Shown: positions 39,175-62,459 of the stretch, in pieces | Numbering within the stretch: position 1 is the stretch's first letter | Layout: each line of letters starts with the position of its first letter | Notes under the pieces: model-generated | Database searches by the model: none | Told to the model about the DNA's origin: nothing | The model's input: the letters and a program-made list of their open reading frames with translations, nothing else | Source: Rhizobium album | GTDB taxonomy: Bacteria; Pseudomonadota; Alphaproteobacteria; Rhizobiales; Rhizobiaceae | Length of the DNA stretch: 64,000 nucleotides | Assembly (NCBI RefSeq): GCF_003122325.1 | Contig: NZ_QFBC01000005.1 | Location: forward strand, 248,001-312,000 | Reading direction: 5' to 3' | Made by a program: the position numbers and the translations under genes

Positions 39175-39216
39175 TTTTTCCTTCCTCTCTTCTCACTATC
39201 GATCGACTGGAAATGC

Positions 39217-40569: not shown

Positions 40570-40614
40570 CTCAGTATCGGATTAAAGCCTAGGCGGGCCG
40601 CCGAGACATGGAAA

Positions 40615-40630
40615 TATCCCGATGGGGATA
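40615..40630. promoter_or_regulatory. Dyad in ligase/LuxR divergent region
   Basis: TATCCC-GATG-GGGATA is a perfect 6-bp inverted repeat in the 115-bp divergent region. It is a plausible operator for the LuxR-type regulator and lies about 46 bp upstream of the ligase start. Confidence 0.45.
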
Positions 40631-40684
40631 GAAGCACATGCGGCTGGCAGATAAAGCGTTGGGGAAGTGGCGGAAGGACAATCA

Positions 40685-42215: not shown

Positions 42216-43751
42216 TCAGCGCCGGCCGGCCGCAAAGGTTTCGGCAATCGCCAGCACGGCGGCATGCACCGGCCCGGAGGTGATCGTCGGGATCACCGAG
42301 GCATCGACGATCGACAGGTTGTCCAGCCCGTTGAAACGCAGGTCGGCATCGACGATGGCGTCGGCATCCTTGCCCATCCGGCAGGTGCCGACCGGGTGGT
42401 GATGGGTGATGACCGCCCTGGCGATGAAATCGTCGATCTCGGCCGTGGTTCGGACACCTGGTCCCGGCAGCAGTTCCTCGGCTTTCCATGCTGTCAAGGC
42501 TTGTGCGCTGCCGATCTCGCGGGCGACGTCGAGTGCCCGGCGGAAGGTCGTCCGGTCGTGATCCGTCTGCAGGTAGGCGGGATCGATCACCGGCTTGTCG
42601 TGAAGATCCGGGCCGCCGATCGAAAGATAACCCCGGCTCGACGGATGGGTGACGCCGAACAGGAAGGTGTAGGCGAAACCGGGTGCGACGGCAGCAAAAC
42701 TCTCCGAAACCGAAGGTCCGGTGACGCAGCCGAGCACGATATCGGGCACACCCTTCGCCTCGGTGATGTCGGCGGCATTCAGGTACATCAGCGACTCGGA
42801 ATGCTGCAGCTTCGTCGGCGGCACGGCCTGGCTGGACCGGTAGACGTTGCCGGCGCCGAGCAGGTGGTCGTGCAGGTTTTGGCCGATTGCCGGCCGCGAC
42901 AGGCGGCATTCGACGCCGGCCCGGCGCAGGACGTCGGGATCGCCGAGGCCGGAGCGCATCAGAAGCAGGGGTGTCGCCACCGATCCCGTGGAGAGGATGA
43001 TCTCGTCGCCGGTGATCGTTTCGTCCCGCCCGTCGCGCGTGACGGCAAGGCCGGTCACCCGGTTGCCGTCGATCACCAGCCGATGCACCGAGACGCCGGT
43101 GAGGATGGTGAGATTGGGCCGCGCCCGCACATCATCGGTCAGATAGGCATCGGCGACGCTGACGCGTTTGCCGTCGCGGATGGTCAGCGAGTTCGGGGAT
43201 GTGCCGTTCAGGTTGCGGCCGTTGTGATCCGGCAGGGTCGGCACGCCGCGTTCATGCCCGGCGGCGATATAGGCACGGACGACGGGATTGACCTCTTCGT
43301 CCGGCAGCCAGACCGGCAGCGGCCCGTCGCCGCCGTGCAGTTCGGATGCGCCGCCGGAAAACCGCTCGCTGCGCAAAAAGCCCGGCAGCAGCCCGTCATA
43401 GGACCAGCGGTCGGAACCGGTTGCCTCGGCCCAGACGGCAAAATCGTCGGGATGGCCGCGGACATGCGCCATGGCGTGCAGGCAGCTCGATCCGCCCAGC
43501 ACCCTGCCGCGCGGCCAGGGATGGATGCGGTTCGCCGTGCCGGGCTGCGGCACGGTCTCGTAGGCCCAGTCGTAGTCGCGGCCCTGGATGAAGGGCCACA
43601 TGGCGGGTTTGGCGATGTCGGGATCGGTCGGCGCGACGCCGGCCTCGATCAGCGCCACCTGCCGGTCGTCGTTTTCGGACAGCCGCGCGGCGAGCACCGA
43701 GCCCGCCGAACCGCCGCCGACCACGACCACGTCGAAATGTTGTGCGGTCAT
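42216..43751 (-). CDS. GMC oxidoreductase, probable pyridoxine 4-oxidase
   Basis: 511-residue FAD enzyme; M. loti pyridoxine 4-oxidase is of similar size. The N-terminal FAD motif VVVVGGGSAGSVLAARLSE, GRVLGGSSCLHAMAHVRGHP and the C-terminal THHHPVGTCRMG are GMC marks. The active-site pair reads H450-x-H452 and, 42 residues on, Pro494 in TSGPVHAA, where most GMC enzymes have His or Asn. The same H-x-H and Pro spacing is reported for M. loti pyridoxine 4-oxidase (His460, His462, Pro504, from memory). It would oxidise pyridoxine to pyridoxal with O2. It ends the minus-strand ring-cleavage operon. Confidence 0.7.
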   Translation of the reverse strand: MTAQHFDVVVVGGGSAGSVLAARLSENDDRQVALIEAGVAPTDPDIAKPAMWPFIQGRDYDWAYETVPQPGTANRIHPWPRGRVLGGSSCLHAMAHVRGHPDDFAVWAEATGSDRWSYDGLLPGFLRSERFSGGASELHGGDGPLPVWLPDEEVNPVVRAYIAAGHERGVPTLPDHNGRNLNGTSPNSLTIRDGKRVSVADAYLTDDVRARPNLTILTGVSVHRLVIDGNRVTGLAVTRDGRDETITGDEIILSTGSVATPLLLMRSGLGDPDVLRRAGVECRLSRPAIGQNLHDHLLGAGNVYRSSQAVPPTKLQHSESLMYLNAADITEAKGVPDIVLGCVTGPSVSESFAAVAPGFAYTFLFGVTHPSSRGYLSIGGPDLHDKPVIDPAYLQTDHDRTTFRRALDVAREIGSAQALTAWKAEELLPGPGVRTTAEIDDFIARAVITHHHPVGTCRMGKDADAIVDADLRFNGLDNLSIVDASVIPTITSGPVHAAVLAIAETFAAGRR

Positions 43752-43761
43752 CTCGGCTGCC

Positions 43762-44805
43762 TCACCGCTGCTCGGCCGGAACCACCTTGCCGTCCTTGGT
43801 CATCGCCTCGCCGTCGAGCGAGAGCGAGCAGTTGCGTAGCGGAATATCGAGATGGCAGGGCACGTCGCGCGTGCCACCGGCCTCGGTGTTCGGACCGGTG
43901 GAGAACAGGAAGTTGCCGGCAAACGAGCGGGCATCCATGCCGAGCTGGGCTTCCGGGTTGGTGAGGCCGAGCACGGTCCAGTGGGCACGGGTATGCAGGC
44001 CCCAGCCGACATGCGCCATGGCATAGGCTTCCGGATCATCGAAGGAATCCATGAAGCGGCGCAGGAACTCGGCGTCGAAACCGCCGTCGATCTTGGTGAC
44101 GTAGCCGTTCTCGACGGTAAAAGTCACCGGGCTGCGGGCATACATCTTCATCGGCAGCAGGATATCGCCTTCCTCGATGACGATGGTGCCGTTGGCGGTC
44201 TTTTCGGTCGGCCAGGTGGCGACGAAGCAGCTCGGCCAGTGGTCCCAGCGGCCCGGCTCGTCGGCAAGGCCGTATTGCGTCAGCACCGGATACTGGCCGA
44301 GGTCGCATTCGAAATCCGTGCCGGCCTTGGAGGTGACGGTCATCTTCTTGGCCACGCCGAGCTTCTTGGCGCCGGCGAGAACGCGGGCCTTGTCCTCTGG
44401 CTTCGGCAGCATGCGCAGCATGATTTCCGGAGGCTCGACGGCGAGCAGCATGCGGGCGCCGGTCTTGAGGATTTCTTCCTGCTCCTTGGAGAACAACAGC
44501 TGCAGCGTGTCTATGACGAAGTCGCTGGCCTTGAGGCAGGCGAGTGCCGCCTTGTTGTGCTCCAGCGCGGTCTTGCCGATGTAACCGGACTTGTCGCGCG
44601 AGATCGCCTTTTCGCCGTTCATCGGCGCCAGGTTGAGGTTGGTGACGACGGCGCCCATGTCGGCTGCGGCAAGGCGCGCCATGCCGGCGATCTGCTGGTT
44701 GGAATCGTCCGAGGTCAGAATGGTCAGCTGTTCGCCGGCCTTGAGATTGCACATGGCGAGAACTTCTTTCCACGCCATCATCAATGCTGCATCGCTAATC
44801 GCCAT
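43762..44805 (-). CDS. NicX-like 2,5-dihydroxypyridine 5,6-dioxygenase family protein
   Basis: 347-residue non-haem iron(II) ring-cleavage enzyme related to NicX of nicotinate degradation and to M29 peptidases in fold. Shared blocks are ILKTG/LLAVEPPE, DEPGRWDHWPS, HVGWGL, GNFLFSTGPNTE and PCHLDIPLRNC. Counting gives His265, His318 and Asp320, the same positions I remember as the iron ligands of P. putida NicX. NicX opens 2,5-dihydroxypyridine to N-formylmaleamate. Here other nic genes are absent and the neighbours point to a substituted pyridine, perhaps a hydroxylated pyridoxate. Confidence 0.85.
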   Translation of the reverse strand: MAISDAALMMAWKEVLAMCNLKAGEQLTILTSDDSNQQIAGMARLAAADMGAVVTNLNLAPMNGEKAISRDKSGYIGKTALEHNKAALACLKASDFVIDTLQLLFSKEQEEILKTGARMLLAVEPPEIMLRMLPKPEDKARVLAGAKKLGVAKKMTVTSKAGTDFECDLGQYPVLTQYGLADEPGRWDHWPSCFVATWPTEKTANGTIVIEEGDILLPMKMYARSPVTFTVENGYVTKIDGGFDAEFLRRFMDSFDDPEAYAMAHVGWGLHTRAHWTVLGLTNPEAQLGMDARSFAGNFLFSTGPNTEAGGTRDVPCHLDIPLRNCSLSLDGEAMTKDGKVVPAEQR

Positions 44806-44841
44806 CGTTTTGTTCCCTTATGATTTAATTGGTTTGTCGTT

Positions 44842-45375
44842 TCAGGCGTCGTCCTGGCCCGGCAGTGAAAAGAAATTGCGGTTGAAGTGCAGCAACGGAC
44901 GCTTGGCGGGATTGAGCCGCACCTTCTTCACCGTGCCGAAAAACACCGAATGGCTCTCCGTCTGCGTCACCTCCGAAACGACGCAGTCGATGTTGACCAG
45001 CGCGCTGTCGAGCGCCGGAGACCCGGTCGCCAGTTCCAGCCAGTCGGCATCGAGGAACTTGTCCTGGCCCACCGCGCCGCCATGGCCGGCAAAACGCTTG
45101 GCGATCTCTTCGTCGGTCTCGGCGAGGATATTGACGCAGAAGGCGCCGGTCGAGGTGATCGCCGCATGCGCTTCGCCCAGACGATTGACGCAGACCAGCA
45201 TGCTCGGCGGCGTCATCGACAGGCTGCAGACGGCGGTTGCCGTCAGGCCGCGGCGGGCCTCCTTCTGGCCGGCGGTGATGATGGTGACGCTGGCGGCCAA
45301 AAGCCGCATCGCCGCCTTGAAATCGTCGACGAGATCATGAGCGGCGAGGTCTGGTGAAGTCTGCGCCGCGTTCAT
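44842..45375 (-). CDS. Flavin reductase of a two-component monooxygenase (HpaC-like)
   Basis: 177-residue NAD(P)H:flavin reductase. The marks FKAAMRLLAASVTIITAG, GLTATAVCSLSMTPPSMLVC and GAFCVNILAE are typical of HpaC-type reductases. It supplies reduced flavin to the HpaB-type oxygenase encoded at 48653-50140 in the same operon. The start MNAAQTS overlaps the amidase stop by 4 bp, so the long in-frame extension upstream is rejected. Confidence 0.87.
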   Translation of the reverse strand: MNAAQTSPDLAAHDLVDDFKAAMRLLAASVTIITAGQKEARRGLTATAVCSLSMTPPSMLVCVNRLGEAHAAITSTGAFCVNILAETDEEIAKRFAGHGGAVGQDKFLDADWLELATGSPALDSALVNIDCVVSEVTQTESHSVFFGTVKKVRLNPAKRPLLHFNRNFFSLPGQDDA

Positions 45376-46673
45376 GCCTTGCCCCTTTTCTGGCTCCAGT
45401 GATCCTCGACAGCCGCGGCAACCGCCAGCGTCCGCCGGTCGTCGTAGCGCCGCCCCACCACCTGCACGCCGACGGGAAGCCCTTTCGGCCCGATGATCGC
45501 CGGCACGTTCAGGCACGGGCCATGCAGCACGGTCCAGGCACGATTGAACAGCGGATCGCCGGTCGGCATGCCTTCGGGCGCCTCGCCCGGGGCGGATGGC
45601 GTGATCAAGGCATCGAAACCCTCGATCAAAGCTTCGAAGCGGTTGCGGATCTCGGGAAGGCGGCGGCGCGCATCCATGTATTCGTCGATCGTCGTCAGGG
45701 ATTTGTCGTGCATCATCTGCCGGGTGGCGACGCCGAGCTGCGGCGAGAGATGTTTGCGCTCATAGGCCAGCGACTGGGTCACTTCCCAGCCCATGATGGC
45801 GTCCTGCAGGTTGAAGATCTCGTCGAACCAGTCCGGTACGGGGATTTCCTTGACGGTCGCACCGGCGTTCGACAGAAGCTCGGCCGTCGCTTCCACGGCC
45901 TGTTGCGACGACGCTTCCGCCTGGTCCCAGCGCGATGTCCGGAAAACGCCGACGGTTGGTTTGCTCATCGCCTCTTCGACGACGAAGCCCGGGTTGTCGG
46001 CAATGGCGGCCGTGCACCAGGCCGCATCCCGCACATCGCGGGTGATGATGCCGAGGGTATCGAGATTGTCGCACAGCACTTTCACGGCGGTGCGGTTCAG
46101 CAGGCCGAAGGTCGGCTTGAAGCCGACGACGCCACAGAAGGAGGCGGGGCGGACGACCGATCCGGATGTCTGGGTTCCGAAGGCAAGCCGGGCATGCCCG
46201 GCGGCAACCGCGGCGCAGGAGCCGCTGGACGAGCCGCCGGGCGTGTGGGCGGTATTGTGCGGGTTGCGCGTCTTGTTCGGGTTCATCATCGCGAACTCGG
46301 TCGAGACGGTCTTGCCGAGCACGACGCCGCCAGCGCTGCGGGCGATGGTCACGCAAGGCGCATCCCAGGCCGGACGGAAGCCATCATAGACCCGCGACCC
46401 ATAACCGGTCGGCATGTCGGCCGTATCGATGACGTCCTTGACGCCGACGGGCACACCGGCGAGCGTTCCCCTGGTCGCCGCCTTGTCGATGCCGCGGGCA
46501 TGGACCAGCGCATTGTCGCGCGCCAGATGTTGCCATGCCATGATCGGCCCGTCCGTGGCCTCGATGTGATCGAAGAAGGCCGTCGTGACATCGACGGCGG
46601 AGAGGTCGCCATTGCCGACCTTTCGGGCGATGTCGCGGGCGGAAAGTTCGAGAATTTGCGATGTCGCGGCCAT
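45372..46673 (-). CDS. Amidase signature-family hydrolase 1
   Basis: 433-residue amidase. The Ser-cisSer-Lys triad is visible: VGVKDVID near residue 74 (Lys) and TPGGSSSGSCAAVAAG (the two Ser). GGAGG precedes the ATG. It lies between the flavin reductase (ATGA overlap) and a second amidase (11 bp). In a pyridine pathway it could hydrolyse the N-acyl-maleamate-type ring-cleavage product or the amide it leaves. Confidence 0.85.
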   Translation of the reverse strand: MAATSQILELSARDIARKVGNGDLSAVDVTTAFFDHIEATDGPIMAWQHLARDNALVHARGIDKAATRGTLAGVPVGVKDVIDTADMPTGYGSRVYDGFRPAWDAPCVTIARSAGGVVLGKTVSTEFAMMNPNKTRNPHNTAHTPGGSSSGSCAAVAAGHARLAFGTQTSGSVVRPASFCGVVGFKPTFGLLNRTAVKVLCDNLDTLGIITRDVRDAAWCTAAIADNPGFVVEEAMSKPTVGVFRTSRWDQAEASSQQAVEATAELLSNAGATVKEIPVPDWFDEIFNLQDAIMGWEVTQSLAYERKHLSPQLGVATRQMMHDKSLTTIDEYMDARRRLPEIRNRFEALIEGFDALITPSAPGEAPEGMPTGDPLFNRAWTVLHGPCLNVPAIIGPKGLPVGVQVVGRRYDDRRTLAVAAAVEDHWSQKRGKA

Positions 46674-46684
46674 GATCCGCCTCC

Positions 46685-48127
46685 TTATGCTGCGTGGCCG
46701 AACGGGGCCGGCGGGCGGCGATCGAACCAGGGAAATGCCTGTTCTAGCTGCGCCGCCAGCGAAAACAGCAAGGCATCCCGCCCGAAGGCGGCGCCGAAAT
46801 GGATGCCGATCGGCAGGCCGTCATCACTCATGGCGAGCGGCACGCTCATCGCCGGGCAGCCGGAAGCGTTGAAGGCAGCGGTAAACGGCCCGTGGCTCCA
46901 GAAGCGGGCGAAGAATTCGTCGAGGTGCCTGCCGCGTCCGGCCAGTTCGCCGAGTTTTGGCGCCGGCGTGTCCGCGACCGGGCTGAGCAGGATGTCGTAG
47001 CGGGCGAAGAAACGGCCAAGCGCCCGTGCCGTCGCATGCAGCTGGTTGATCGCCCACATATAGTCGATGCCGGAGCGGCTGCGGCCCTCGCGCACCCATT
47101 CCTGGTTGACCGGTTCGATCTGCTCGATCGGATCCGGCCCGCCCGGCTGCTGACTGAAGCTGATACCGGTGGCGGCGCTGACGCCGGCGATGATCCGCCA
47201 TGCCTTCATCAACGCGTGCCCGTCGTAGCCGGCATCGGCCACGTCCTCGACATGGTGGCCGAGACCTTCCAGCTTCCTTGCCGTATCGCGGACGGCTGCC
47301 AGTACCTGTGGATCGATCGCCGTGCCGGTCGGCGCCGTCAGCGTCATGCCGATGCGCAGGCATTTTGGCGGGCGGGCGAGGCTGGCGAGATAGGTGCCCT
47401 CCTCGGCCGGCGCGGCATAGGGGTCGCCGACATCGGAGCCGGCGGAAACATCCAGAAGCGCGGCGTTGTCGCGCACCGACCAGGAGACCGCATGCGGCGT
47501 CGACATGCCAGCAATTGCCTCGACGGCGACGGGGCCGAGCGGGTTGCGCATGCGGGTCGGCTTGAAACCGAAGAGGCCGCAATGGGATGCCGGCAGGCGC
47601 GTCGAGCCGGCGCCGTCGGAACTGTTGGCGAAGGCAACGAGGCCGGCCGCCACGGCCGCCGTCGAGCCGCCGGAGGAGCCGCCGGCCGTACGCGTCAGGT
47701 CCCACGGGTTATGCACCGGCCCGAAGGCATCGGATTCGGTGGTAAAACTGAGGGCGAATTCCGGCGTGTTGGACTTTCCGAGGATGACGAGGCCGCCGGC
47801 CTTGTAGCGTGCCGCCAGCGTGCCGTCCCGCCTCGACACCGTATTCCGGTGCAGCTCCGAGCCGGTGGAGAGGATCATGCCGTCCACCTCGAAACCGGTA
47901 TTCTTGATCAGGAACGGCACGCCGGTAAAGGCGCCGTCCGGCAGGCCATCGGCGATTGCTTTGCGGGCGAGGTCGAAATGCGCATGCACGACGGCGTTGA
48001 GCTTCGGGTTCAGCGCTTCGATCCGCGCGATGGTCGCATCGAGCAGCTCTTCGGCCGAGATCTCCTTGCTGCGGATCAGCCCGGCCAGTCCGAGTGCGTC
48101 GTATCGGGTGAAATCGAAAGCGGCCAT
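46685..48127 (-). CDS. Amidase signature-family hydrolase 2
   Basis: 480-residue amidase with Lys in PFLIKNTGFEV and the serines in TAGGSSGGSTAAVAAG. Only distantly similar to its neighbour, so the two probably do different steps (for example N-deacylation and deamidation) rather than being a recent duplication. It is placed 6 bp before the SnoaL-like gene stop in the same operon. Confidence 0.85.
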   Translation of the reverse strand: MAAFDFTRYDALGLAGLIRSKEISAEELLDATIARIEALNPKLNAVVHAHFDLARKAIADGLPDGAFTGVPFLIKNTGFEVDGMILSTGSELHRNTVSRRDGTLAARYKAGGLVILGKSNTPEFALSFTTESDAFGPVHNPWDLTRTAGGSSGGSTAAVAAGLVAFANSSDGAGSTRLPASHCGLFGFKPTRMRNPLGPVAVEAIAGMSTPHAVSWSVRDNAALLDVSAGSDVGDPYAAPAEEGTYLASLARPPKCLRIGMTLTAPTGTAIDPQVLAAVRDTARKLEGLGHHVEDVADAGYDGHALMKAWRIIAGVSAATGISFSQQPGGPDPIEQIEPVNQEWVREGRSRSGIDYMWAINQLHATARALGRFFARYDILLSPVADTPAPKLGELAGRGRHLDEFFARFWSHGPFTAAFNASGCPAMSVPLAMSDDGLPIGIHFGAAFGRDALLFSLAAQLEQAFPWFDRRPPAPFGHAA

Positions 48128-48133
48128 TTTTCG

Positions 48134-48538
48134 TCACGCAATCTGTTGTTTGAAGCTGTCGAGGTTCCAGAGATCCTTGGTGCCGATCAACCCGTCATCG
48201 GAAAACTCGAAGAGATGCAAGCCCTTCAGCACCACGGTCTTCGGCTGCGGCACCTCTTCGCCCTCCTTCGGGCGCGGCGTGAAGGTGCCGCGCATCGTGT
48301 AGAGCACGGCCGCCTGCCGGCCGGAAAGGATGCGCTGCTCTTCGCTCCAGGTGACGTCGGGCAGCATGCGGAAGAAGCCGGCAAGCCCTTCGGCCACCGC
48401 TTCGCGTCCCGTCCTGCGTTTGCTCATTGCGACTTCCTCGTGCCAGCCGTCTTCGGGGTAAAGCGCGCCGGCCTTGGCCGCATCGCGCTCGGCGTAGGCC
48501 AAATAAAAGGCATCGAGGATGGAATGGAAATCGGCCAT
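48134..48538 (-). CDS. SnoaL-like (NTF2-fold) protein
   Basis: 134-residue protein of the NTF2/SnoaL fold: FHSILDAFYLAYAERDAAKA at the N terminus, YTMRGTFTP and LKGLHLFEFSDDGLI toward the C terminus. Fold members are small isomerases, dehydratases or non-catalytic binding proteins. The ATG at 48538 has GGGGAC upstream. It sits between the second amidase and the HpaB-type oxygenase, so it probably acts on a pathway intermediate. No specific reaction can be assigned. Confidence 0.8.
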   Translation of the reverse strand: MADFHSILDAFYLAYAERDAAKAGALYPEDGWHEEVAMSKRRTGREAVAEGLAGFFRMLPDVTWSEEQRILSGRQAAVLYTMRGTFTPRPKEGEEVPQPKTVVLKGLHLFEFSDDGLIGTKDLWNLDSFKQQIA

Positions 48539-48608
48539 GGGAAATGTCCCCAGCAAGTGCTGGCGGCCCCTGCCCCGATCCGGGCGAGGCGGCCAGATTC
48601 AGGATGTC

Positions 48609-48634
48609 GGCAGGCGCCCGCAAAGGCGCCCGCC
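48609..48634. other. Hairpin between HpaB-type and SnoaL-like genes
   Basis: GGCAGGCGCC (48609-48618) pairs with GGCGCCCGCC (48625-48634) through a GC-rich stem with one wobble and a 6-nt loop. It could reduce read-through after the oxygenase gene. No T run. Confidence 0.45.
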
Positions 48635-48652
48635 TTGCCGATGAAGGCCGGC

Positions 48653-50140
48653 TTATTCGATGCCGGCGAGCTTCTTGACCTGGCCGGTGAACTCGTTGCG
48701 CTTGATCTCTTCGTAGAGACGGGCGCGCAGGCGCGGAGCCGGGCTGGCATTGACGTTTTCGAACAGGGCGACACGGCCGGCAAGCGCACCGGAGGTCATG
48801 TCCCAGATGAAGTTCATCAGCTGTTCCTTGACCATGGCGGAAACGCCGTGGCCGGGCAGCAGGTCGTGCAGGTAGTGACCGATCTCGGGATTGTCGTACG
48901 CCTTTTTGCCGAAGCGCATGACGAGGCCCTGGCCGCACATTTCCTGCAGGATGTGAATGATGCGCGGATAATGCTGGATCGAGTAGAGGCGGCCGGCGGT
49001 CAGCATGCCGGCATCCGGTGCCATCACGCCGCCCTCGGTCGGCTTGGCAAGCGCTTCCGCCGCCAGCACGAAGGCGCGCAGCGCCTGCTGGTATTCGATC
49101 AGTTCGCCGAGCATCAGCTGCACGGCCGGGATCTTGCCGGTGCCGAGGTAATCGAGCACGAGCTGGCCAGCGCCGACGAACAGTTCCGCCTTGACGGCAA
49201 GGCGCGTCAGCACGTGCCAGTGCGCGAAAATGCAGACCGGGCCGTAATACTGCATCGCCGTCGGATCGCCGAGGTTGAAGATGCGGTCCTTCGGAACGAA
49301 GACGTTGTCGAAGATGATGAACTGGTCGGCTTCTTCGCCCATGGAGGCGATCGGATGGTCGAATTTTTCCGAACCCGGCTGCGACACCATTTCGCGGGAA
49401 ATCAGCTTGATGCCTTCGGAATTGACCGGGATCGACCCCCAGATGCAGGCGTCCGCCGGCGTTTCCTGGATGCCGCCGAGGTTGGTGAAGAAGATTTCCT
49501 TGGCCTGCGCTGCGATCGAACCGACCGTCTTGGCGCCGTAGATGCGGATGCCGTCCTTCTCGACGCTCTTGACCTTGAGAAGCGATGCTTCGGACGCCTT
49601 CGGAGAAGAGCGGTCGGACTGCGGGCCGGCAAGGCTTTCGGAGGCCGTCAGGTTGTTTTCACGGCCGTATTCGACGTAGCGCTCGATGTTTTCGGCGAAA
49701 TCCGGATCGATGCCGTCGATCAGCGACTTCTTCTTCTTGAAGGTCGGCAGGTAGGCGTAGAGGCCGACGGCGATGGCGGGCGCCAGATCCGGCGGACGGC
49801 CGAAGGTGCCGCCGGTCTTCAGGCTGGTGTATTCGATCATCTTGCGGCGATCGACCAGCTCTTCCTTGGTGCGCGGGATCTGCCAGGCGCGGCTGACGAC
49901 GGCTTTGGCGGCCTCGTCGTAATAGGTGGTGGCATCGGCGTGCTCGTCGGTGAACTGGTCGTCGAACATGGATGCGAGAAGATCGACGCCGGCGGCGAGA
50001 GCCGGCTCGTCCGTCACCTTCTCGATCTGCTTGCCGCCAACCCAGATCTGGCGGCCGTCGATCAGCGACTCCTTGAATTCGGCACCCGTCTTCAGACGGT
50101 GCTCCGTCGCCGATTTGAATTGCCTTTGCGTGTTTGTCAT
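48653..50140 (-). CDS. HpaB-family FADH2-dependent monooxygenase
   Basis: 495-residue oxygenase subunit of the 4-hydroxyphenylacetate 3-hydroxylase family. Family marks include DFAENIERYVEYGREN, DHPIASMGEEADQFIIFDNV (then VPKDRIF) and the C-terminal GHYLHDLLPGHG. Such enzymes use reduced flavin and O2 to hydroxylate phenols next to the OH. On a 3-hydroxypyridine they could add OH at C2 or C6, giving the dihydroxypyridine a NicX-type enzyme opens. The partner reductase is at 44842-45375. Confidence 0.87.
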   Translation of the reverse strand: MTNTQRQFKSATEHRLKTGAEFKESLIDGRQIWVGGKQIEKVTDEPALAAGVDLLASMFDDQFTDEHADATTYYDEAAKAVVSRAWQIPRTKEELVDRRKMIEYTSLKTGGTFGRPPDLAPAIAVGLYAYLPTFKKKKSLIDGIDPDFAENIERYVEYGRENNLTASESLAGPQSDRSSPKASEASLLKVKSVEKDGIRIYGAKTVGSIAAQAKEIFFTNLGGIQETPADACIWGSIPVNSEGIKLISREMVSQPGSEKFDHPIASMGEEADQFIIFDNVFVPKDRIFNLGDPTAMQYYGPVCIFAHWHVLTRLAVKAELFVGAGQLVLDYLGTGKIPAVQLMLGELIEYQQALRAFVLAAEALAKPTEGGVMAPDAGMLTAGRLYSIQHYPRIIHILQEMCGQGLVMRFGKKAYDNPEIGHYLHDLLPGHGVSAMVKEQLMNFIWDMTSGALAGRVALFENVNASPAPRLRARLYEEIKRNEFTGQVKKLAGIE

Positions 50141-50210
50141 ACGCGTGTTCCCCTTCGGATATTTTAAGATAAGGCAGATATGTGAAGCGCCGTCAGGCGG
50201 AAATGCTCGG

Positions 50211-50603
50211 CTATTCGTGCTCCCGGATCACTTCTGCGGCAACGCGCATGCAGTCGAGCGCGGCCGGCACGCCGCAATAGATGGCGGCCTGGAGGATGAC
50301 CTCGACGATCTCCTCCTTGGTGACGCCGTTGTTCAGCGCGCCGCGCACATGGATCTTGATTTCATGCGGCCGGTTGAGGGCCGTCAGCATCGCGAGGTTG
50401 AGGAAGCTGCGCGTCTTGCGCTTCAGGCCCGGGCGGTTCCAGATCTCGCCCCAGCACCATTCCGTCACCAGTTTCTGCAGCGGCGCCGTCAGGTCGTCGA
50501 CGGAATTGAGCGAGCGGTCGACATAGGCGTCGCCAAGGACCTCCCGTCGCACTTTCAGGCCTTTTTCGAAGAGTTCCGTCTGGAACTCGGGGCGAGTCGT
50601 CAT
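50211..50603 (-). CDS. Carboxymuconolactone decarboxylase-family protein (PcaC-like)
   Basis: 130-residue helical protein of the CMD family: WNRPGLKRKTRSFLNLAMLT and HEIKIHVRGALNNGVTKEEI are PcaC-like. PcaC decarboxylates 4-carboxymuconolactone; members in other pathways decarboxylate vinylogous acids or act as peroxidatic AhpD-like proteins. The CxxC of AhpD is absent. It is the first gene of the minus-strand operon and could decarboxylate a carboxylated ring-cleavage product. Confidence 0.82.
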   Translation of the reverse strand: MTTRPEFQTELFEKGLKVRREVLGDAYVDRSLNSVDDLTAPLQKLVTEWCWGEIWNRPGLKRKTRSFLNLAMLTALNRPHEIKIHVRGALNNGVTKEEIVEVILQAAIYCGVPAALDCMRVAAEVIREHE

Positions 50604-50714
50604 CAATGTCCCCCATTTCTTATTTGTTGTCGCCGGGCGCCCGGTTTGCAGGCAACTGCCACCCTTCGCCGTTGATGCCCGGACCATAACGGCCACGATA
50701 TTGACCGTCAAGAG

Positions 50715-50735
50715 ATTGTATGACAGGATTACAAT
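50715..50735. promoter_or_regulatory. Dyad in the divergent promoter region of the pyridine locus
   Basis: ATTGTA (50715-50720), 9 bp, TACAAT (50730-50735): a perfect 6-bp inverted repeat in the 223-bp gap between the two divergent operons. AGATTGTATgAC here recurs with one mismatch as AGATTGTATtAC at 57919-57930 before the SDR gene. The FadR-type GntR protein at 56262-57002 is the candidate binder. Confidence 0.5.
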
Positions 50736-50826
50736 AATATAAAAACGGGACAGGCGAAGGCGCGGTCTCGACAGGGGCGGCGGAATCGAACATCAATGCC
50801 GCAGCGGTCGAAGACCAAAGCTTCCG

Positions 50827-51663
50827 ATGGGGCGGAAAAACGTGTCGATAGAACCATTTGAGCTATACGCCATCCGTTACGCCAATCATTCCGGCCGCCA
50901 TCTCTCCGACAATTACCTCGGCGGCGACAGCCATGAAGGCGGTGCGGATCTCGACTATTATGTCTGGGTGGCGCGGCGTTCCGATCGCGTCTTCGTTATC
51001 GATACGGGCTTCGACGAAGAGGCGGCGCAAGCGCGGGGCCGCACCCTGCTGCGCATGCCCTCCGAGGCGCTTTCCCATCTCGGCATTGCCGCCGCGGATG
51101 TCGACCAGGTGATCCTCACCCACCTGCATTACGACCATGCCGGCACGCTCGACAGCTTTCCGAAGGCGCGCTTTCACGTGCAGGATGCGGAGGTGGCTTA
51201 TGCCACGGGGCGCTGCATGTGCCATTCGCCGTTGCGCGCGCCCTATTCCGTCGAAGATGTGACGCGCTTCGTGCGCTGCGTCTATCATGGCCGTGTGGCG
51301 TTCCATGACGGCACCACTGAAATCGTGCCGGGCCTGACGCTGCATCGCACCGGCGGCCATACCGCCGGGCTGCAGGTCGTGCGGGTGTGGACGAAGCGCG
51401 GCTGGGTGGTGATCGCCTCCGATGCCTCGCATTTCTACGATAATGTTTCGAGCGGCCGGTCCTTCCCGATCCTGCACAGCCTCGGCGACATGCTGGAGGG
51501 TTTTCGAACCATCAAGGCGCTGGCCGAGGACGAGGACCACATCGTACCCGGTCACGATCCGCTGGTGATGAAGGTCTATCGTCCGCCAAGCCCGGAACTG
51601 GAGGGCATTGCCGTCCGGCTCGACGAGGCGCCGATCAAGCCATGGAGAGATCTGCTGCCATGA
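50827..51663 (+). CDS. MBL-fold lactonase-like hydrolase
   Basis: 278-residue metallo-beta-lactamase-fold enzyme. Metal ligands are in VILTHLHYDHAGTL (HxHxDH), HRTGGHTAGLQ and IASDASHFYDN, with the last His in VPGHDPLV. In M. loti 4-pyridoxolactonase is also an MBL-fold protein, though its sequence as remembered differs, so a lactonase role on 4-pyridoxolactone is an inference from context. A GTG at 50842 after GGCGGAA is an alternative start. The stop overlaps the SDR start (ATGA). Confidence 0.8.
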   Translation: MGRKNVSIEPFELYAIRYANHSGRHLSDNYLGGDSHEGGADLDYYVWVARRSDRVFVIDTGFDEEAAQARGRTLLRMPSEALSHLGIAAADVDQVILTHLHYDHAGTLDSFPKARFHVQDAEVAYATGRCMCHSPLRAPYSVEDVTRFVRCVYHGRVAFHDGTTEIVPGLTLHRTGGHTAGLQVVRVWTKRGWVVIASDASHFYDNVSSGRSFPILHSLGDMLEGFRTIKALAEDEDHIVPGHDPLVMKVYRPPSPELEGIAVRLDEAPIKPWRDLLP

Positions 51664-52439
51664 GGGGAAAAACTGCGCTGATCACCGGCTCGACGGCCGG
51701 ATTGGGACTGGCCATCGCCGAACGTTTTGCCGCCGAAGGCTGCAACACCGTGCTGACAGGCCTGGATACCCAGGAGGACGGCGAGGAGACCGCCGCCAAG
51801 CTCGAAGCAAAACACGGTTGCTGCGTCGTCTACAAGCGCGCCGACCTGCGCAATCCGCAGGAGATCGAGGCGCTGCACGCCGCCGCCGTCCGCACCTTCG
51901 ATACGGTCGATATCCTCGTCAACAACGCCGTCATCCGCCGTTTCGCCCCCGTCGAGCAACTGCCGCCGGAGGACTGGAGCCAGGCGCTGGCCGTCAATCT
52001 CTCCGCCGCCTTTCACACGATCCGGCTGGCCTTGCCCGGCATGCGGCAGAAAGGCTGGGGCCGGATCATCAATCTCGCTTCCGTCTACAGCCTGATTGCC
52101 CTGCCCGGCCGGCTGGACTACGTCACCACCAAACATGCCATCGTCGGCATGACGCGGACGGTGGCGCTGGAAACGGCATCGGAGGATATCACCTGCAATG
52201 CCATCTGCCCCGGCCTGATGCACACGCCCTCGGCGCAGGCACGGATCGAGGCGATGGCGGCGGAGAAGAACATTTCCGTCGAGGAAGCCACCCGCGACTT
52301 TCTCTCGACCCGCCAGCCCGGCGGACGCTTCATTTCCATGGATACGGTCACGGCGCTTGCCGCCTTTCTCTGTGGCCCGCACAGCCGCGATCTCAACGGC
52401 GCGCTGCTGCCGGTCGATAACGGCTGGTCCATCGCCTGA
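51660..52439 (+). CDS. Short-chain dehydrogenase (3-hydroxybutyrate dehydrogenase-like)
   Basis: 259-residue classical SDR. The cofactor motif ITGSTAGLGLAIAERF is near the N terminus, NNAVIRRF replaces the usual NNAG, and the catalytic Tyr-Lys pair in LDYVTTKHA is intact with LASVYS. It is translationally coupled to the lactonase-like gene. Pyridoxal 4-dehydrogenase of M. loti is an SDR feeding a lactonase, so it could make 4-pyridoxolactone here; a hydroxy-acid dehydrogenase role is equally compatible with its sequence. Confidence 0.83.
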   Translation: MRGKTALITGSTAGLGLAIAERFAAEGCNTVLTGLDTQEDGEETAAKLEAKHGCCVVYKRADLRNPQEIEALHAAAVRTFDTVDILVNNAVIRRFAPVEQLPPEDWSQALAVNLSAAFHTIRLALPGMRQKGWGRIINLASVYSLIALPGRLDYVTTKHAIVGMTRTVALETASEDITCNAICPGLMHTPSAQARIEAMAAEKNISVEEATRDFLSTRQPGGRFISMDTVTALAAFLCGPHSRDLNGALLPVDNGWSIA

Positions 52440-52484
52440 TTTCCTATCGAACGCATACGGCGCATCAAGCGCCCTGGAGGTATC

Positions 52485-53393
52485 ATGTCTAAAACGGTTC
52501 TGGGTTTCGTCGGTCTCGGCAATATGGGGGCGCCGATGGCGTCGCGCCTCATCGATGCGGGGTATGAGCTGGTCATTTACGACCGCAGCGAAGCCGCCCT
52601 GCAGGCCCTCGTTGCCAAAGGCGCCCGCGCTGCCGCTTCGCCGGCTGCCGTCGCTTCCGAAGCCGAGACCGTGCTGATCTCGCTGCCGACGCCTGACGTC
52701 GTCAAGCTCGTCTGCACCGGCGCCGACGGCCTGTCATCGGGCACGAAAATCCGCCGCATCGTCGATCTCTCGACCACCGGCCCGCAGGCCGAGGCCGATG
52801 TCGCGACCAGGCTGCAAGGCACCGATATCAAGCTGATCGATTGCCCGGTCAGCGGCGGCGTGGCCGGCGCCAGTAAGGGCTCGCTGGCGCTGATGGCCTC
52901 AGGCGACCGCGACGCCTTCGATCTGCTCGTGCCGGTGCTCGAAAACCTCGGCAAGGTGTTTTATGTCGGCGCCGAGCCCGGCATGGCGCAGACGATGAAG
53001 CTGATCAACAATATCTGCTCCGCAGCCGCGCTTGCCATCACCTCCGAAGCCATGGTGCTCGGCGCCAAGGCCGGGCTGGAGGCGGAGACGATGATCGACG
53101 TGCTCAACGCCGGCAGCGGCCGCAACAGCGCCTCGGTGGACAAGATCCCACGTTTCGTGCTGCCGCGCACCTTCGATTTCGGCTTTGCCGTCGGCCTGTC
53201 CGCCAAGGATATCCGGCTGTGCGTCGAGGAAGGCGAGCGTCTCGGCGTGCCGATGATGGTGGCGAGCGCCGTTCGCCAGCTGTTTTCGATCACCAGGAGC
53301 GAATTCGGCCATGATGCCGACATGACCGCCGTCATCCGCACCGTCGAGCAGTGGGCCGGCGCCGAGGTCAAGGGCAAGGACGCCAAGGCGTGA
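52485..53393 (+). CDS. 3-hydroxyisobutyrate dehydrogenase-family oxidoreductase
   Basis: 302-residue beta-hydroxyacid dehydrogenase. The Rossmann motif GFVGLGNMGAPMASRLIDAG begins the protein; DCPVSGGVAGASKGSL is the substrate loop and Lys in GMAQTMKLINN is catalytic. GGAGG precedes the ATG. The family includes 2-(hydroxymethyl)glutarate dehydrogenase of nicotinate fermentation, and pyridoxine ring opening would leave hydroxymethyl acids, so oxidation of a CH2OH group fits the context. That role is inferred. Confidence 0.85.
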   Translation: MSKTVLGFVGLGNMGAPMASRLIDAGYELVIYDRSEAALQALVAKGARAAASPAAVASEAETVLISLPTPDVVKLVCTGADGLSSGTKIRRIVDLSTTGPQAEADVATRLQGTDIKLIDCPVSGGVAGASKGSLALMASGDRDAFDLLVPVLENLGKVFYVGAEPGMAQTMKLINNICSAAALAITSEAMVLGAKAGLEAETMIDVLNAGSGRNSASVDKIPRFVLPRTFDFGFAVGLSAKDIRLCVEEGERLGVPMMVASAVRQLFSITRSEFGHDADMTAVIRTVEQWAGAEVKGKDAKA

Positions 53394-53395
53394 GC

Positions 53396-54742
53396 ATGGC
53401 GATGCAGACGGGAGCGAGCCGGCGGCTTGCGGCCTTCGCCGCGGGCCTGGCATGGGAGCAGGTGCCCGCCGAGGTGCGGCACGCGGCGAAACGCTGCCTG
53501 GTCAATTTCTTCGCAACCGCAATCGCCGGCAGCGGCGAGCCGGCGCTCGACAAGGCCTGCGGCGTTCTCGGCGCCTTCAGCGGCCCGTCGTCTTCCACCG
53601 TGATCGGCCGTGACGAACGGCCGGACATGCTGTGGGCGTCGTTCCTGAATGCCGCCAGCGCCAATGTCTTCGATTTCGACGACACGCATATTCCGACGAT
53701 CATCCACCCGACGGCGCCGGTCGCTCCCGTCGTTTTCGCGCTGGCGGAAAACCGTCCGCTGCGCGGCGAGGAGCTTTTGCTGGCCTTCATTCTCGGCGTG
53801 GAAATCGAATGCCGCATCGGCAATGCCGTTTCGCCGAGCCATTACAGCCGCGGCTGGCACATCACCTCAACCTGCGGCACGTTCGGCGCCGCCTTTGCTG
53901 CCGGCAAGATTTTGGGTTTCGGCGAAGGGCAGTTCCTCGACGCCCTCGGCAATGCTTCGGCGCAGGCCTCCGGTCTGGTCGAGACGCTGGGCACGATGTC
54001 GAAAAGCATCAGCGTCGGCAATGCCGCCCGCAACGGGCTGCTATCGGCGCTGCTTGCTGCCGACGGCTTCTCCGGCCCTGCCTTGCCCTTGGAAGGTCCG
54101 CGCGGCTTTCTGGAGGTTACGGCGGAAAAGCCTGACCTTGCTATTCTCCTCGATGGCCTCGGAACACGCTGGGAAATCCTCTCCAACACGTTCAAGCCTT
54201 ATCCCTGCGGCGTCGTGCTCAATCCGGTGATCGATGCGTGCCTGACCTTGCGCGGCAAGCCGGGTTTCGACGCCGCGGCCATCGAAAAAATCACCCTGAC
54301 GGGTCATCCGCTGCTGCGCCAGCGCACCGACCGGCCCGGTGTTGCGACCGGCCGCCTGTCGCAGGTCAGCGCCCAACATGCGGTGGCGATATCCTTGCTC
54401 ACCGGCAAGGCCGGCCTGCCGGAATTCAGCGACGAGAGCGTTGCCGACCCGGCGGTGCGGGCGCTTGGCGAAAAGCTCTCTTTCGTCGACGATCCCGCCT
54501 TCGATGTCGAAGGGGCACGCGTCGAGATCACCCTGGCCTGCGGAAATCTGGCGGTGACGGTGGAAAAGGCGCGCGGCAGCCTCGGCAATCCCTTGAGCGA
54601 TGCCGAACTGGAGGACAAACTGAAGGTACTCAGCCGGTATCGCGGTCGAAGCTTCGATATCGACCGCTTGCTGTCGGCCATCTGGGCGCTCGACCGAACG
54701 GACGATGCGGGTGCCGTTATGAAACACGCGGCCGGCCACTAA
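53396..54742 (+). CDS. MmgE/PrpD-family protein
   Basis: 448-residue member of the 2-methylcitrate dehydratase/aconitate decarboxylase superfamily. Marks are FDFDDTHIPTIIHPTAPV near residue 98 and GWHITSTCGTFGAAFAAGKI near residue 155. Members dehydrate or decarboxylate branched tricarboxylic acids. In this operon an aconitate-like product of pyridoxate ring opening could be the substrate. It starts 2 bp after the previous stop. The exact reaction is not assignable. Confidence 0.85.
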   Translation: MAMQTGASRRLAAFAAGLAWEQVPAEVRHAAKRCLVNFFATAIAGSGEPALDKACGVLGAFSGPSSSTVIGRDERPDMLWASFLNAASANVFDFDDTHIPTIIHPTAPVAPVVFALAENRPLRGEELLLAFILGVEIECRIGNAVSPSHYSRGWHITSTCGTFGAAFAAGKILGFGEGQFLDALGNASAQASGLVETLGTMSKSISVGNAARNGLLSALLAADGFSGPALPLEGPRGFLEVTAEKPDLAILLDGLGTRWEILSNTFKPYPCGVVLNPVIDACLTLRGKPGFDAAAIEKITLTGHPLLRQRTDRPGVATGRLSQVSAQHAVAISLLTGKAGLPEFSDESVADPAVRALGEKLSFVDDPAFDVEGARVEITLACGNLAVTVEKARGSLGNPLSDAELEDKLKVLSRYRGRSFDIDRLLSAIWALDRTDDAGAVMKHAAGH

Positions 54743-54772
54743 GCCATCGCTGCAGGAACAGGAGTGAAGACC

Positions 54773-55954
54773 ATGAGCAAACCCACCCAGACCGATCCGA
54801 TTTTTACGCTGACCACCGGTCCTGTCGATTCCTATCCGGCGGTCCTGCGGGCGCTGGCGCGGCCGGTGCTATATGATTACGATCCGGCTTTCCTTGAGCA
54901 TTACGAAAATGTTTCCCGCAAGGTGCAGAAGGCGTTCGCCTCGCGCACCATGCCGGTGATCCTGCAGGGCGAGCCGGTGCTCGGCCTCGAAGCCGCTGCC
55001 GCCTCGCTGCTGGCCAGGGAGGATGTCGTCCTCAATCTGGCTTCGGGCGTTTACGGCGCCGGCTTTGCCGGCTGGGCGAAGCGTTATTGCGCCGAGGTGG
55101 TGGAAATCCGCGTTCCCTATAACGAGGTGATCGATCCGCAATCGGTCGCCGACATGCTGAAGGCCCGCCCGGAGATCCGCGTCGTCGCGGTTTGCCATCA
55201 CGATACGCCTTCCGGCACCATCAATCCGGTCGCCGAAATCGGCCGGATCGTCCATGCGCATGGTGCCCTGCTGCTGGTGGATGCCGTGTCGTCCTTCGGC
55301 GGCATGGAGGTCTATCCCGACACGATCCATGCCGACCTGTTTGTGACTGGCCCCAACAAGTGCCTCGGCTGCCCGCCCGGCCTCTCGCTGCTGTCGGTGA
55401 GCGATGCCGCCTGGGCGAAGATGAAGGCCAATCCGGCTGCGCCGCGGGCCTCGATGCTGTCGATCCTCGATTGGGAAGACGCCTGGCGCGCCGACCGCCC
55501 CTTCCCTTTCACCCCGTCGGTCGCCGAAATCAACGGCCTCGATGCGGCGCTCGACCTCTACCTTGACGAAGGCCCGGAAAACGTCTGGCGCCGCCATGCG
55601 CTGACGGCCGAGGCCACCCGCGCCGGCATCCTGGCCGCCGGCCTGAAACTCTGGCCGGCCAGCGAGGCGATTTCATCGCCGACGACGACGGCCGTTCGTG
55701 TTCCCGAGGGCATCGACGAAGCGGTGCTGCGCAAGGAGGCGCGGCGGCGGTACGGCGTGGTGTTCTCCTCCGGCCGTGGCGAAACGCTCGGCAAGCTGAC
55801 GCGCATCGGCCATATGGGGCCGACGGCGCGGCCGATCTATGCCCCGATCGCCATCACGGCGCTGGTCGGCACGCTGTCGGCCATGGGTGTTGCCGGCCTT
55901 GATCTCGGCGCCGGCGTGACGGCTGCCATGGCGGTGATCGACCGCGATCTGTGA
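54773..55954 (+). CDS. ppaT: Pyridoxamine-pyruvate transaminase
   Basis: 393-residue class V aminotransferase, the same length as the M. loti enzyme and, as remembered, very similar along its whole length: VLYDYDPAF, GEPVLGLEAAAASL, LNLASGVYG, VCHHDTPSGTINP, VDAVSSFGGM, GPNKCLG (Lys196), RASMLSI, FSSGRGETLGKLTRIGHMGP. The enzyme transfers the amino group of pyridoxamine to pyruvate, giving pyridoxal and alanine, with no PLP cofactor of its own. This gives the strongest pointer to vitamin B6 as the substrate of the locus. The ATG at 54773 has AGGAG 8 nt upstream. Confidence 0.85.
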   Translation: MSKPTQTDPIFTLTTGPVDSYPAVLRALARPVLYDYDPAFLEHYENVSRKVQKAFASRTMPVILQGEPVLGLEAAAASLLAREDVVLNLASGVYGAGFAGWAKRYCAEVVEIRVPYNEVIDPQSVADMLKARPEIRVVAVCHHDTPSGTINPVAEIGRIVHAHGALLLVDAVSSFGGMEVYPDTIHADLFVTGPNKCLGCPPGLSLLSVSDAAWAKMKANPAAPRASMLSILDWEDAWRADRPFPFTPSVAEINGLDAALDLYLDEGPENVWRRHALTAEATRAGILAAGLKLWPASEAISSPTTTAVRVPEGIDEAVLRKEARRRYGVVFSSGRGETLGKLTRIGHMGPTARPIYAPIAITALVGTLSAMGVAGLDLGAGVTAAMAVIDRDL

Positions 55955-56261: not shown

Positions 56262-57002
56262 ATGCTGAATAACAACGGTAAGAAGAAGATGCCGGTTTTG
56301 TCCAAGGACGCGCCCCAGTATAATTTCAAGGTCACCAAGACGGCTGCACCCTTGCGCCACAGCGTCACGGAAAGCATTCGCAATTCCATCGCCGCCGGCA
56401 TCTACAAGGCCGGTGACCGGCTGACGGAACGCGATCTCTGCGAAATGACTGGCGTCAGTCGCACGGCCGTGCGCGAGGCGCTGCGCCAGCTTGAATCCGA
56501 AGGAATGATTCACGTCCTGCCGCACCGCGGCCCGATCGTCGCCGGTGTCACGCCGGAGCAGGCCGAAGGCATCTACCAGGTGCGCATGGAACTCGAAGGG
56601 CTGGCCAGCGAATTGTTTGCGCAGCGTGCGACGCCCGCCGACCACAAGGCATTGCGCAAGGCCTTCAAGAAGATGAAGGATTCGTCCACCTCGACGGATT
56701 CCATCGTCCGCCTCAAGGCCAAGAACGACTTCTACGATTGTCTGATCTCCGGCGCTTACAACGAAGCGCTGGGCCAGACGCTCTCCATGCTCAACTCCCG
56801 CATCATGGTGCTGCGGGCCACGTCGCTGCAGGCGCCGGGCCGCACGGTGCAGAGCATGGAGGAACTGAGCGAACTGGTGGAACTGCTGGTCGCCCGTAAA
56901 GATGCCGAGGCGCGCAAGGCGGCGATCAAGCATGTGTCCAATGCCGCCAAGGTGGCGATCGGCATTCTGCGCGCCCAGTTCGAGGAAGCGGCCGCGGAGT
57001 AA
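56262..57002 (+). CDS. GntR-family regulator, FadR/FCD type
   Basis: 246-residue regulator. The winged helix (GDRLTERDLCEMTGVSRTAV, then REALRQLESEGMI) spans about residues 30-90 and the rest is an FCD effector domain with metal-binding His/Asp positions. It sits at the middle of the pyridine/vitamin B6 locus, between the degradative operon and the SDR and importer genes, so it is the likely controller. An alternative ATG at 56289 would remove nine residues. Confidence 0.87.
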   Translation: MLNNNGKKKMPVLSKDAPQYNFKVTKTAAPLRHSVTESIRNSIAAGIYKAGDRLTERDLCEMTGVSRTAVREALRQLESEGMIHVLPHRGPIVAGVTPEQAEGIYQVRMELEGLASELFAQRATPADHKALRKAFKKMKDSSTSTDSIVRLKAKNDFYDCLISGAYNEALGQTLSMLNSRIMVLRATSLQAPGRTVQSMEELSELVELLVARKDAEARKAAIKHVSNAAKVAIGILRAQFEEAAAE

Positions 57003-58613: not shown

Positions 58614-58646
58614 TGTTTGTTATTTGCAAAATACGAATAACAAACA
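58614..58646. promoter_or_regulatory. Perfect 11-bp inverted repeat before the BMP importer
   Basis: TGTTTGTTATT (58614-58624), 11 bp, AATAACAAACA (58636-58646). It lies centrally in the divergent region, 30 bp from the small exported protein start and 38 bp from the binding-protein start. It is AT-rich and most likely an operator for a dimeric regulator. Confidence 0.7.
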
Positions 58647-59718: not shown

Positions 59719-59740
59719 TAGAGCGCAGACGATCGTTCGC

Positions 59741-59766
59741 CGCGCCGACGGGGTTCCGTCGGCGCG
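59741..59766. other. Hairpin after BMP binding-protein gene
   Basis: CGCGCCGACGG (59741-59751) and CCGTCGGCGCG (59756-59766): perfect 11-bp stem with a 4-nt loop between binding-protein and ATPase genes. It probably stabilises the upstream message. Confidence 0.65.
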
Positions 59767-62456: not shown

Positions 62457-62459
62457 GTC

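Follow-up and report, generated by a model that had tools for sequence, protein, structure and literature searches.

The 64,000-nucleotide stretch of Rhizobium album DNA analysed here (hereafter the window; contig NZ_QFBC01000005.1, positions 248,001 to 312,000) carries at 42216-63392 a gene cluster that very probably encodes a pathway for vitamin B6 catabolism in which the pyridine ring is attacked by an HpaB-type flavin hydroxylase and opened by a homologue of the dioxygenase NicX. We lean towards a pathway that leaves the known bacterial route at pyridoxal, and consider pyridoxal somewhat likelier than 4-pyridoxate to be the substrate of the ring attack. The proposal in its fullest form, namely that an HpaB-type pyridoxal 6-hydroxylase and a Gln177 NicX-clade dioxygenase open a fully substituted ring, that neither 4-pyridoxolactone nor 4-pyridoxate is formed, and that three interchangeable modules carry out the lower steps, stands in our judgement at about even chances. 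We infer those steps that go beyond homology, synteny and active-site comparison.

If true, the proposal would add a further bacterial route for the destruction of vitamin B6, would widen the scope of NicX-type cleavage to include a fully substituted ring, and would explain why B6-specific entry enzymes are found without the known downstream genes in Rhizobium, Ciceribacter, Neorhizobium, Ancylobacter, Paracoccus, Celeribacter, Ochrobactrum/Brucella and others. Unlike the known B6 route, it would employ the kinds of enzymes familiar from phenol and nicotinate breakdown. A description of an HpaB/NicX route for B6 was not found among the papers listed in searches of open-licence literature, which cover few subscription papers. 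Current models fit the HpaB genes only as distant HpaB relatives and the NicX homologue not at all; the gene families described below, together with Gln177 of NicX as a marker residue, are offered for annotation.

Gene layout and predicted entry of the B6 vitamers

The cluster consists of two divergent operons that meet at window positions 50604-50826. Leftward from this region, the minus-strand operon encodes a carboxymuconolactone decarboxylase-like protein (CMD), HpaB, a SnoaL-like protein, two amidases (Ami2, then Ami1), a flavin reductase, the NicX homologue and pyridoxine 4-oxidase (PNO), and rightward the plus-strand operon encodes an MBL-fold hydrolase (MBL), SDR1, a 3-hydroxyisobutyrate dehydrogenase-like protein (HIBADH), an MmgE/PrpD family protein, pyridoxamine-pyruvate transaminase (PPAT) and a GntR regulator. 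Domain and model scans of the window proteins confirm the gene names and coordinates of an earlier note on this DNA; its list, accurate in the placing of every gene, ended at 55954 and thus before SDR2, F8 and the four genes of a putative B6 ABC transporter at 58684-63392. The features are as follows (ORF, open reading frame).

42216-43751, minus strand: pyridoxine 4-oxidase (PNO), GMC family; 59% identical to its counterpart in a classical cluster
43762-44805, minus strand: NicX-type Fe(II) ring-cleaving dioxygenase
44842-45375, minus strand: flavin reductase partner; PF01613, 127 bits; ORF opens at 45516, presumed start at 45375
45372-46673, minus strand: Ami1; PF01425, GGSSSGS motif
46685-48127, minus strand: Ami2; PF01425, GGSSGGS motif
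48134-48538, minus strand: SnoaL-like protein; PF12680; ORF opens at 48556, start presumed
48653-50140, minus strand: two-component flavin hydroxylase of the HpaB type, proposed to hydroxylate a B6 vitamer at C6; PF11794, PF03241
50211-50603, minus strand: CMD; ORF opens at 50711, start presumed
50604-50826, no strand: divergent promoter region, with the conserved element AGATTGTATGACAG at 50713-50726
50827-51663, plus strand: MBL, proposed lower-step lactonase; HLHYDH motif
51642-52439, plus strand: SDR1, 3-hydroxybutyrate dehydrogenase-like by family matches, proposed lower-step dehydrogenase
52485-53393, plus strand: HIBADH; PF03446, PF14833
53396-54742, plus strand: MmgE/PrpD family protein; PF03972, PF19305; ORF opens at 53351, start presumed
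54773-55954, plus strand: PPAT; ORF opens at 54764, start presumed
56262-57002, plus strand: GntR-family regulator; TIGR03338, 100 of 271.5 bits
57043-57810, minus strand: SDR2, found in type A clusters only (family match, cluster comparison)
57919-57932, plus strand: second copy of the promoter element, AGATTGTATTACGG, by pattern match
58156-58584, minus strand: F8, a small protein adjoining the B6 transporter and predicted to be a secreted beta-sandwich, the signal having been identified by eye
58684-59718, plus strand: putative B6 ABC transporter, substrate-binding protein; NF047927, 491.5 bits, cut-off 400
59785-61368, plus strand: putative B6 ABC transporter, ATPase; NF047930, 772.6 bits, cut-off 670
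61365-62456, plus strand: putative B6 ABC transporter, permease 2; NF047929, 541 bits, cut-off 400
62460-63392, plus strand: putative B6 ABC transporter, permease 1; NF047928, 513.7 bits, cut-off 465

The assignment of the entry enzymes is the firmest part of the reading. The two best matches of PNO in the PDB are 3t37, deposited as a 'probable dehydrogenase' (639 bits), and 4ha6, deposited as 'pyridoxine 4-oxidase' (638 bits), both of which we take to be the Mesorhizobium loti pyridoxine 4-oxidase. PPAT exceeds the cut-off of the NCBIfam equivalog NF046070 (665.8 versus 600 bits) and matches at 607 bits the PDB entry 2z9u, deposited as an 'aspartate aminotransferase' and presumably the PPAT of M. 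loti. All four putative transporter proteins are likewise above their NCBIfam cut-offs. Because of the homology of PPAT and PNO, the prediction that the cluster handles B6 vitamers as far as pyridoxal is well supported: the ABC system would bring in the vitamers, and pyridoxine and pyridoxamine would be converted into pyridoxal by PNO and PPAT, respectively, both steps resting upon strong homology.

PPAT homologues above the cut-off and 59-68% identical to that of the window also occur at four loci (L082, L090, L091 and L092) where the other B6 genes compared gave no close match within about 20 kb. F8 adjoins the B6 ABC transporter both in classical and in HpaB clusters and is predicted to form a beta-sandwich (mean predicted local distance difference test score of 88); it has no Pfam match, and a fold search of the PDB gave none at E<=0.001. 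At window positions 58614-58646, just upstream of the gene for the B6 binding protein, two 11-base arms flank an 11-base spacer and form a perfect inverted repeat.

Proposed hydroxylation and opening of the ring

The HpaB protein carries the HpaB_N and HpaB domains and has a flavin reductase partner, the features by which the HpaB/chlorophenol monooxygenase family is recognised. It differs from the named members of that family in falling under the NCBIfam equivalog cut-offs (HpaB-1, 224.9 of 480.2 bits; HpaB-2, 128.8 of 885.2 bits) and in that its relatives from the genome scan described below are 62-83% identical to it. Among proteins of solved structure its closest relatives (203-204 bits) bear the names of chlorophenol, 4-hydroxyphenylacetate and nitrophenol monooxygenases.

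The NicX homologue matches 2,5-dihydroxypyridine 5,6-dioxygenase (PDB 7cn3) at 383 bits over residues 1-346, and the other two PDB matches listed have E values of 0.27 and 0.53. In Pseudomonas putida NicX, according to PMC7910607, iron is bound by H265, S302, H318 and D320, and E177 and H189 grip N1 and O1 of the substrate, the variant E177A retaining 2.7% of activity. The window homologue keeps all four iron ligands as well as H189, R293 and L104, and has Phe at position 105 and Gln at position 177; as such, the substrate-binding pair is kept in only one of its members (E177 being replaced by Q). We read this as a case of unchanged chemistry with an altered grip on what would be a different substrate, a ring carrying a methyl group, a hydroxymethyl group and a C4 substituent. 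Phe105 was dropped as a sign of altered function, given that the same source reports the H105F variant to be active (PMC7910607) and that the six nearest relatives outside the HpaB clusters (L115-L120) also have Phe.

Gln177 is found in 60 of the 82 aligned NicX rows. These 60 comprise 48 distinct HpaB-cluster places (the window, the clusters with PNO and PPAT, and their cut contigs), the loci L068, L130 and L135, and some repeats. Each of the 48 places read has Gln, in contrast to the Glu of L115-L120 and P. putida; more distant relatives have Val (12) or Ile (3). L130 and L135 are themselves distant NicX relatives (32%). Gln177 may reflect a B6-derived substrate.

From the chemistry of the two families and the 3-hydroxyl group of B6, hydroxylation at C6 and cleavage between C2 and C3 are predicted. 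HpaB and its flavin reductase would hydroxylate pyridoxal (the likeliest substrate) at C6, the position para to the 3-hydroxyl, and the NicX homologue, by the chemistry of its family, would then break the bond between C2 and C3. This would yield an N-acetyl imide, whose two amide bonds Ami1 and Ami2 would cut to release acetate and ammonia; two amidases fit such a product because it is predicted to carry two amide bonds. Hydroxylation by HpaB with NicX-type opening after it, already proposed in the earlier note, is supported, and so is the fit of the two amidases to an imide; both amidases are present in 44 of the 46 intact clusters compared below. The scheme resembles the NicX step of nicotinate breakdown, which two hydrolytic steps would similarly follow, but the hydrolases of the window are PF01425 amidases, whereas NicD and NicF belong to other families.

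An attack by HpaB at C4, expelling the formyl or carboxyl group to leave a 3,4-dihydroxypyridine for the NicX homologue to open, was set aside because of the two amidases. Chlorophenol and nitrophenol monooxygenases, which are among the nearest solved relatives of HpaB, do displace ring substituents. The opening of 3,4-dihydroxypyridine moreover has a precedent in Arthrobacter IN13, by an enzyme of another family (PMC7356986). A C4 attack would nonetheless leave a single enamide and render two amidases unneeded, and characterised NicX works on 2,5-dihydroxypyridine; we hold this course to be most improbable.

Recurrence of the cluster and the classical route

Searching named genomes for relatives of the window HpaB yielded 45 loci with identities of 62-83%. 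Forty of these loci and six from genomes of the order make up 46 intact clusters (45 distinct, as G155 and L066 are one contig of 261,789 bases, which likewise reduces the 30 HpaB genome entries and 24 type B entries used below to 29 and 23). Genes were matched at 38% identity (30% for SnoaL, F8, AbrB and one GntR family) with half of the query covered. Outside the 46 stand three short contigs without PPAT (L028, L061 and L069), a fragment without HpaB (L072) and a locus without PPAT and PNO (L068). PNO, PPAT, HpaB and NicX occur together in 46/46 intact clusters, PPAT and HpaB having been selection criteria; Ami1, Ami2 and SnoaL are each present in 44, and flavin reductase in 40. Among 297 genomes of the order, PPAT is above the cut-off in 22 and this HpaB (at least 76% identical) is found in 7, all of which fall within the 22 (hypergeometric P 4.5e-9, uncorrected for relatedness). 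The co-occurrence of HpaB and PPAT thus exceeds chance. The only other HpaB match at E<=1e-60 in these genomes, in G236, is 30% identical and has two stops.

These counts bear upon the possibility that HpaB and NicX act on some other 3-hydroxypyridine and that the B6 genes are mere neighbours. At L068, HpaB (62%) and NicX (40%) are indeed coupled without PNO or PPAT; the partner genes there also differ, however, and PNO and PPAT stand beside HpaB and NicX in every intact cluster (a count that leaves aside L068 and the cut contigs L028, L061 and L069, all of which lack PPAT) in three different gene orders, while all seven HpaB genomes of the order sample are PPAT genomes. We regard mere neighbourhood as quite improbable. 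That B6 is the substrate, as the earlier note had proposed, is supported by the identity of PPAT and PNO, the transporter models and this co-occurrence.

Seen at L068 (7984-20865), L141 (4026-13865) and L142 are this Pararhizobium polonicum module, which further contains a flavin reductase, an amidase and, named by eye, an isochorismatase-like protein and a Pot-type ABC system, and, on the far side of PNO in two Neorhizobium genomes, a similar block of amidase, isochorismatase and ABC genes. In the classical genome G181, a set of HpaB, flavin reductase, Cupin_7 and amidase-like genes (L079, 2373-6211) lies near pyridoxal dehydrogenase, PPAT and lactonase, and is possibly yet another ring-opening route.

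The intact clusters have three architectures. Type A, for which MBL and MmgE/PrpD are the defining genes (so that counts for these two are true by definition), comprises 17 clusters with the gene set of the window, SDR1, HIBADH, CMD, GntR and SDR2 being present in 17/17. Type B1 comprises 13 clusters (12 distinct), all with CMD, an alpha/beta hydrolase and a crotonase; the hydrolase of L049 is PcaD-like (TIGR02427, 166 bits, cut-off 255.85), and an HIBADH-like gene was called in 8/13, with 35% identity to that of the window in the two tested. The 16 clusters of type B2 all carry an AbrB-like membrane protein, and CMD and HIBADH were unmatched in them at threshold. SDR1, MBL, MmgE/PrpD and SDR2 were seen in 0/29 type B clusters within the stretch read.

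The divergent region of type A holds a conserved element, AGATTGTATKAC. Of the 142 loci fetched, 18 have an exact copy at a similar distance before HpaB: all 17 intact type A clusters and L028. In L072, a type A fragment, the copy has a single mismatch. In the window the element occurs at both 50713 and 57919, where 0.02 copies would be expected (longer form, one mismatch allowed, the pattern having been drawn from these sites), and for this reason the sequence suggests that both operons and the SDR2/transporter side form one regulon.

The cluster shares PNO, PPAT, the B6 ABC transporter and pyridoxal as a hub with the 4-pyridoxate route of M. loti and Pseudomonas, but has HpaB, NicX and two amidases in place of the remainder. 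For comparison we used the classical cluster of a relative, G248 (loci L073 and L093), which holds PNO, a hydrolase, a ring oxygenase, a decarboxylase, dehydrogenases, a transporter, 4-pyridoxolactonase, PPAT and pyridoxal dehydrogenase. Its lactonase, pyridoxal dehydrogenase and 5-formyl-3-hydroxy-2-methylpyridine-4-carboxylate (FHMPC) dehydrogenase are above the NCBIfam cut-offs; its other gene names are our assumptions from gene order and family. A genome was termed classical when it had a 4-pyridoxolactonase above the cut-off, so that this count is true by definition. The 22 PPAT genomes include 9 with such a lactonase, 7 with HpaB and none with both. Among the 30 HpaB entries, the lactonase was above the cut-off in 1 (0/7 of the order sample, 1/23 of the others), the classical pyridoxal dehydrogenase was found in 0 (versus 8/8 classical genomes given, at least 68% identical), and FHMPC dehydrogenase in 0 (versus 8/9 classical genomes above the cut-off, the ninth at 467 of 500 bits). 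A 4-pyridoxolactonase gene in pieces, with a stop, lies near PPAT in another genome (G136:C1:3238821-3239308).

In the window's own genome, searches found no pyridoxal 4-dehydrogenase at E<=1e-55 (scoring having covered 72 of the 101 candidates), no 4-pyridoxolactonase above the cut-off (best 96 of 325 bits) and no FHMPC dehydrogenase at E<=1e-80. The earlier note had seen no classical ring-opening set in its span, which holds for the cluster, and had called for a genome search for the M. loti 3-hydroxy-2-methylpyridine-5-carboxylate (MHPC) oxygenase; that search gave as nearest relative a protein on another contig (40% identical, 211 bits), and no close orthologue. Relatives of 36-40% occur in 3/30 HpaB entries, this genome included. 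The ring oxygenase is in any case a poor discriminator, as a close orthologue was not found in two classical genomes, G209 and G131, either; at their loci (L074, L094, L077 and L103) the classical upper genes and FHMPC dehydrogenase are present. Names for 4-pyridoxate dehydrogenase, 3-hydroxy-2-methylpyridine-4,5-dicarboxylate (HMPD) decarboxylase and 2-(acetamidomethylene)succinate (AAMS) hydrolase are absent among the cluster genes, no genome-wide search for these having been made. As HpaB, NicX, PNO and PPAT recur together, HpaB falls within the PPAT genomes and the classical enzymes were mostly not found, the comparison supports a predicted alternative pathway for opening the B6 ring.

The probable substrate of the ring attack and the proposed lower steps

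Pyridoxal can be converted into 4-pyridoxate by a dehydrogenase and a lactonase or directly by a pyridoxal oxidase (PMC6253932). SDR1 and MBL are adjacent and belong to the same superfamilies as the two classical enzymes, which allows for a course in which they (or unlinked enzymes in the other cluster types) make 4-pyridoxate, HpaB hydroxylates its C6 and NicX then opens the ring. The tricarboxylate chemistry that would ensue would also suit CMD, and the known direct oxidation (PMC6253932) makes an unlinked oxidase a live rival. The earlier note took SDR1 and MBL for pyridoxal dehydrogenase and 4-pyridoxolactonase, but they are not orthologues of the classical-cluster enzymes (32% and 26% identical), MBL reaches 47.7 bits with the lactonase model NF047925, whose cut-off is 325, and 29/46 intact clusters lack the pair while retaining HpaB, NicX, PNO and PPAT; both assignments were set aside on these grounds. 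Type B1, furthermore, pairs CMD with a PcaD-like hydrolase and not with MBL, which argues for a lactone made after ring opening. For these reasons 4-pyridoxate, which the earlier note favoured as the HpaB substrate, stays one option and not the likeliest, pyridoxal being the better fit to the minimal clusters; on balance we consider the course through 4-pyridoxate unlikely.

MBL is found in 6/6 type A genomes tested (at least 52% identical), whereas 20 of the 24 type B entries, searched as whole genomes, have no relative at E<=1e-20 (the other four have 56, 46, 41 and 29%). SDR1 orthologues of at least 56% occur in 6/6 type A genomes, and the search of the 24 type B entries, where scoring covered a portion of the first-look candidates for some of the genomes, gave relatives of 44-46% in 5, none at E<=1e-70 in 19, and none above 46%.

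With pyridoxal as the substrate of the ring attack, we favour a role for SDR1, MBL and CMD after ring opening. What would remain in type A is a six-carbon formyl/hydroxymethyl diacid in its lactol form, which SDR1 may oxidise to a butenolide; decarboxylation by CMD, opening by MBL and completion by HIBADH and MmgE/PrpD might follow. These are the weakest parts of the scheme. Either order of aldehyde oxidation should converge on 5-oxo-2,5-dihydrofuran-3,4-dicarboxylate, and oxidation after ring opening is favoured because a dehydrogenase that could act on the aldehyde is absent from the genes shared by type B2 and because the partner of CMD is MBL in type A and the PcaD-like hydrolase in B1. 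Such a pairing, which recalls the PcaC and PcaD steps of protocatechuate breakdown, is what one would expect if a butenolide forms once the ring is open; the substrate would differ from that of PcaC and PcaD, and CMD falls just under the cut-off of the PcaC model TIGR02425 (154.3 versus 155.7 bits).

Several observations weigh against a dedicated pathway that proceeds from pyridoxal. Six of the 22 PPAT genomes carry neither 4-pyridoxolactonase above the cut-off nor this HpaB, and one HpaB genome, G310, does have such a lactonase (339.9 bits). Some of the genome searches, moreover, scored part of the first-look candidates, as with the 72 of 101 SDR candidates in the window's genome (G000). As type B2 clusters share no aldehyde dehydrogenase, an unlinked enzyme may oxidise the aldehyde beforehand. 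Relatives of MBL occur in the classical genome G131 (53%) and off-cluster in three type B genomes, G087 (56%), G308 (46%) and G303 (41%). Flavin reductase is missing or under threshold in 6/46 clusters, the amidases are set apart, beyond PNO, in L040 and L041, and the lower-step genes vary among types A, B1 and B2. Gln177 in L068, which has HpaB and NicX without PNO or PPAT, and in L130 and L135 means that neither the HpaB/NicX pair nor this residue is confined to B6.

Outside the cluster, the left neighbours at window positions 36844-41482 (a PotD-type protein, a glutamine synthetase-like protein and a LuxR regulator) were matched in 0/51 locus sets. At the right edge, a frame that by eye resembles class III aminotransferases occupies 63503-64000, where it is cut off by the end of the window.

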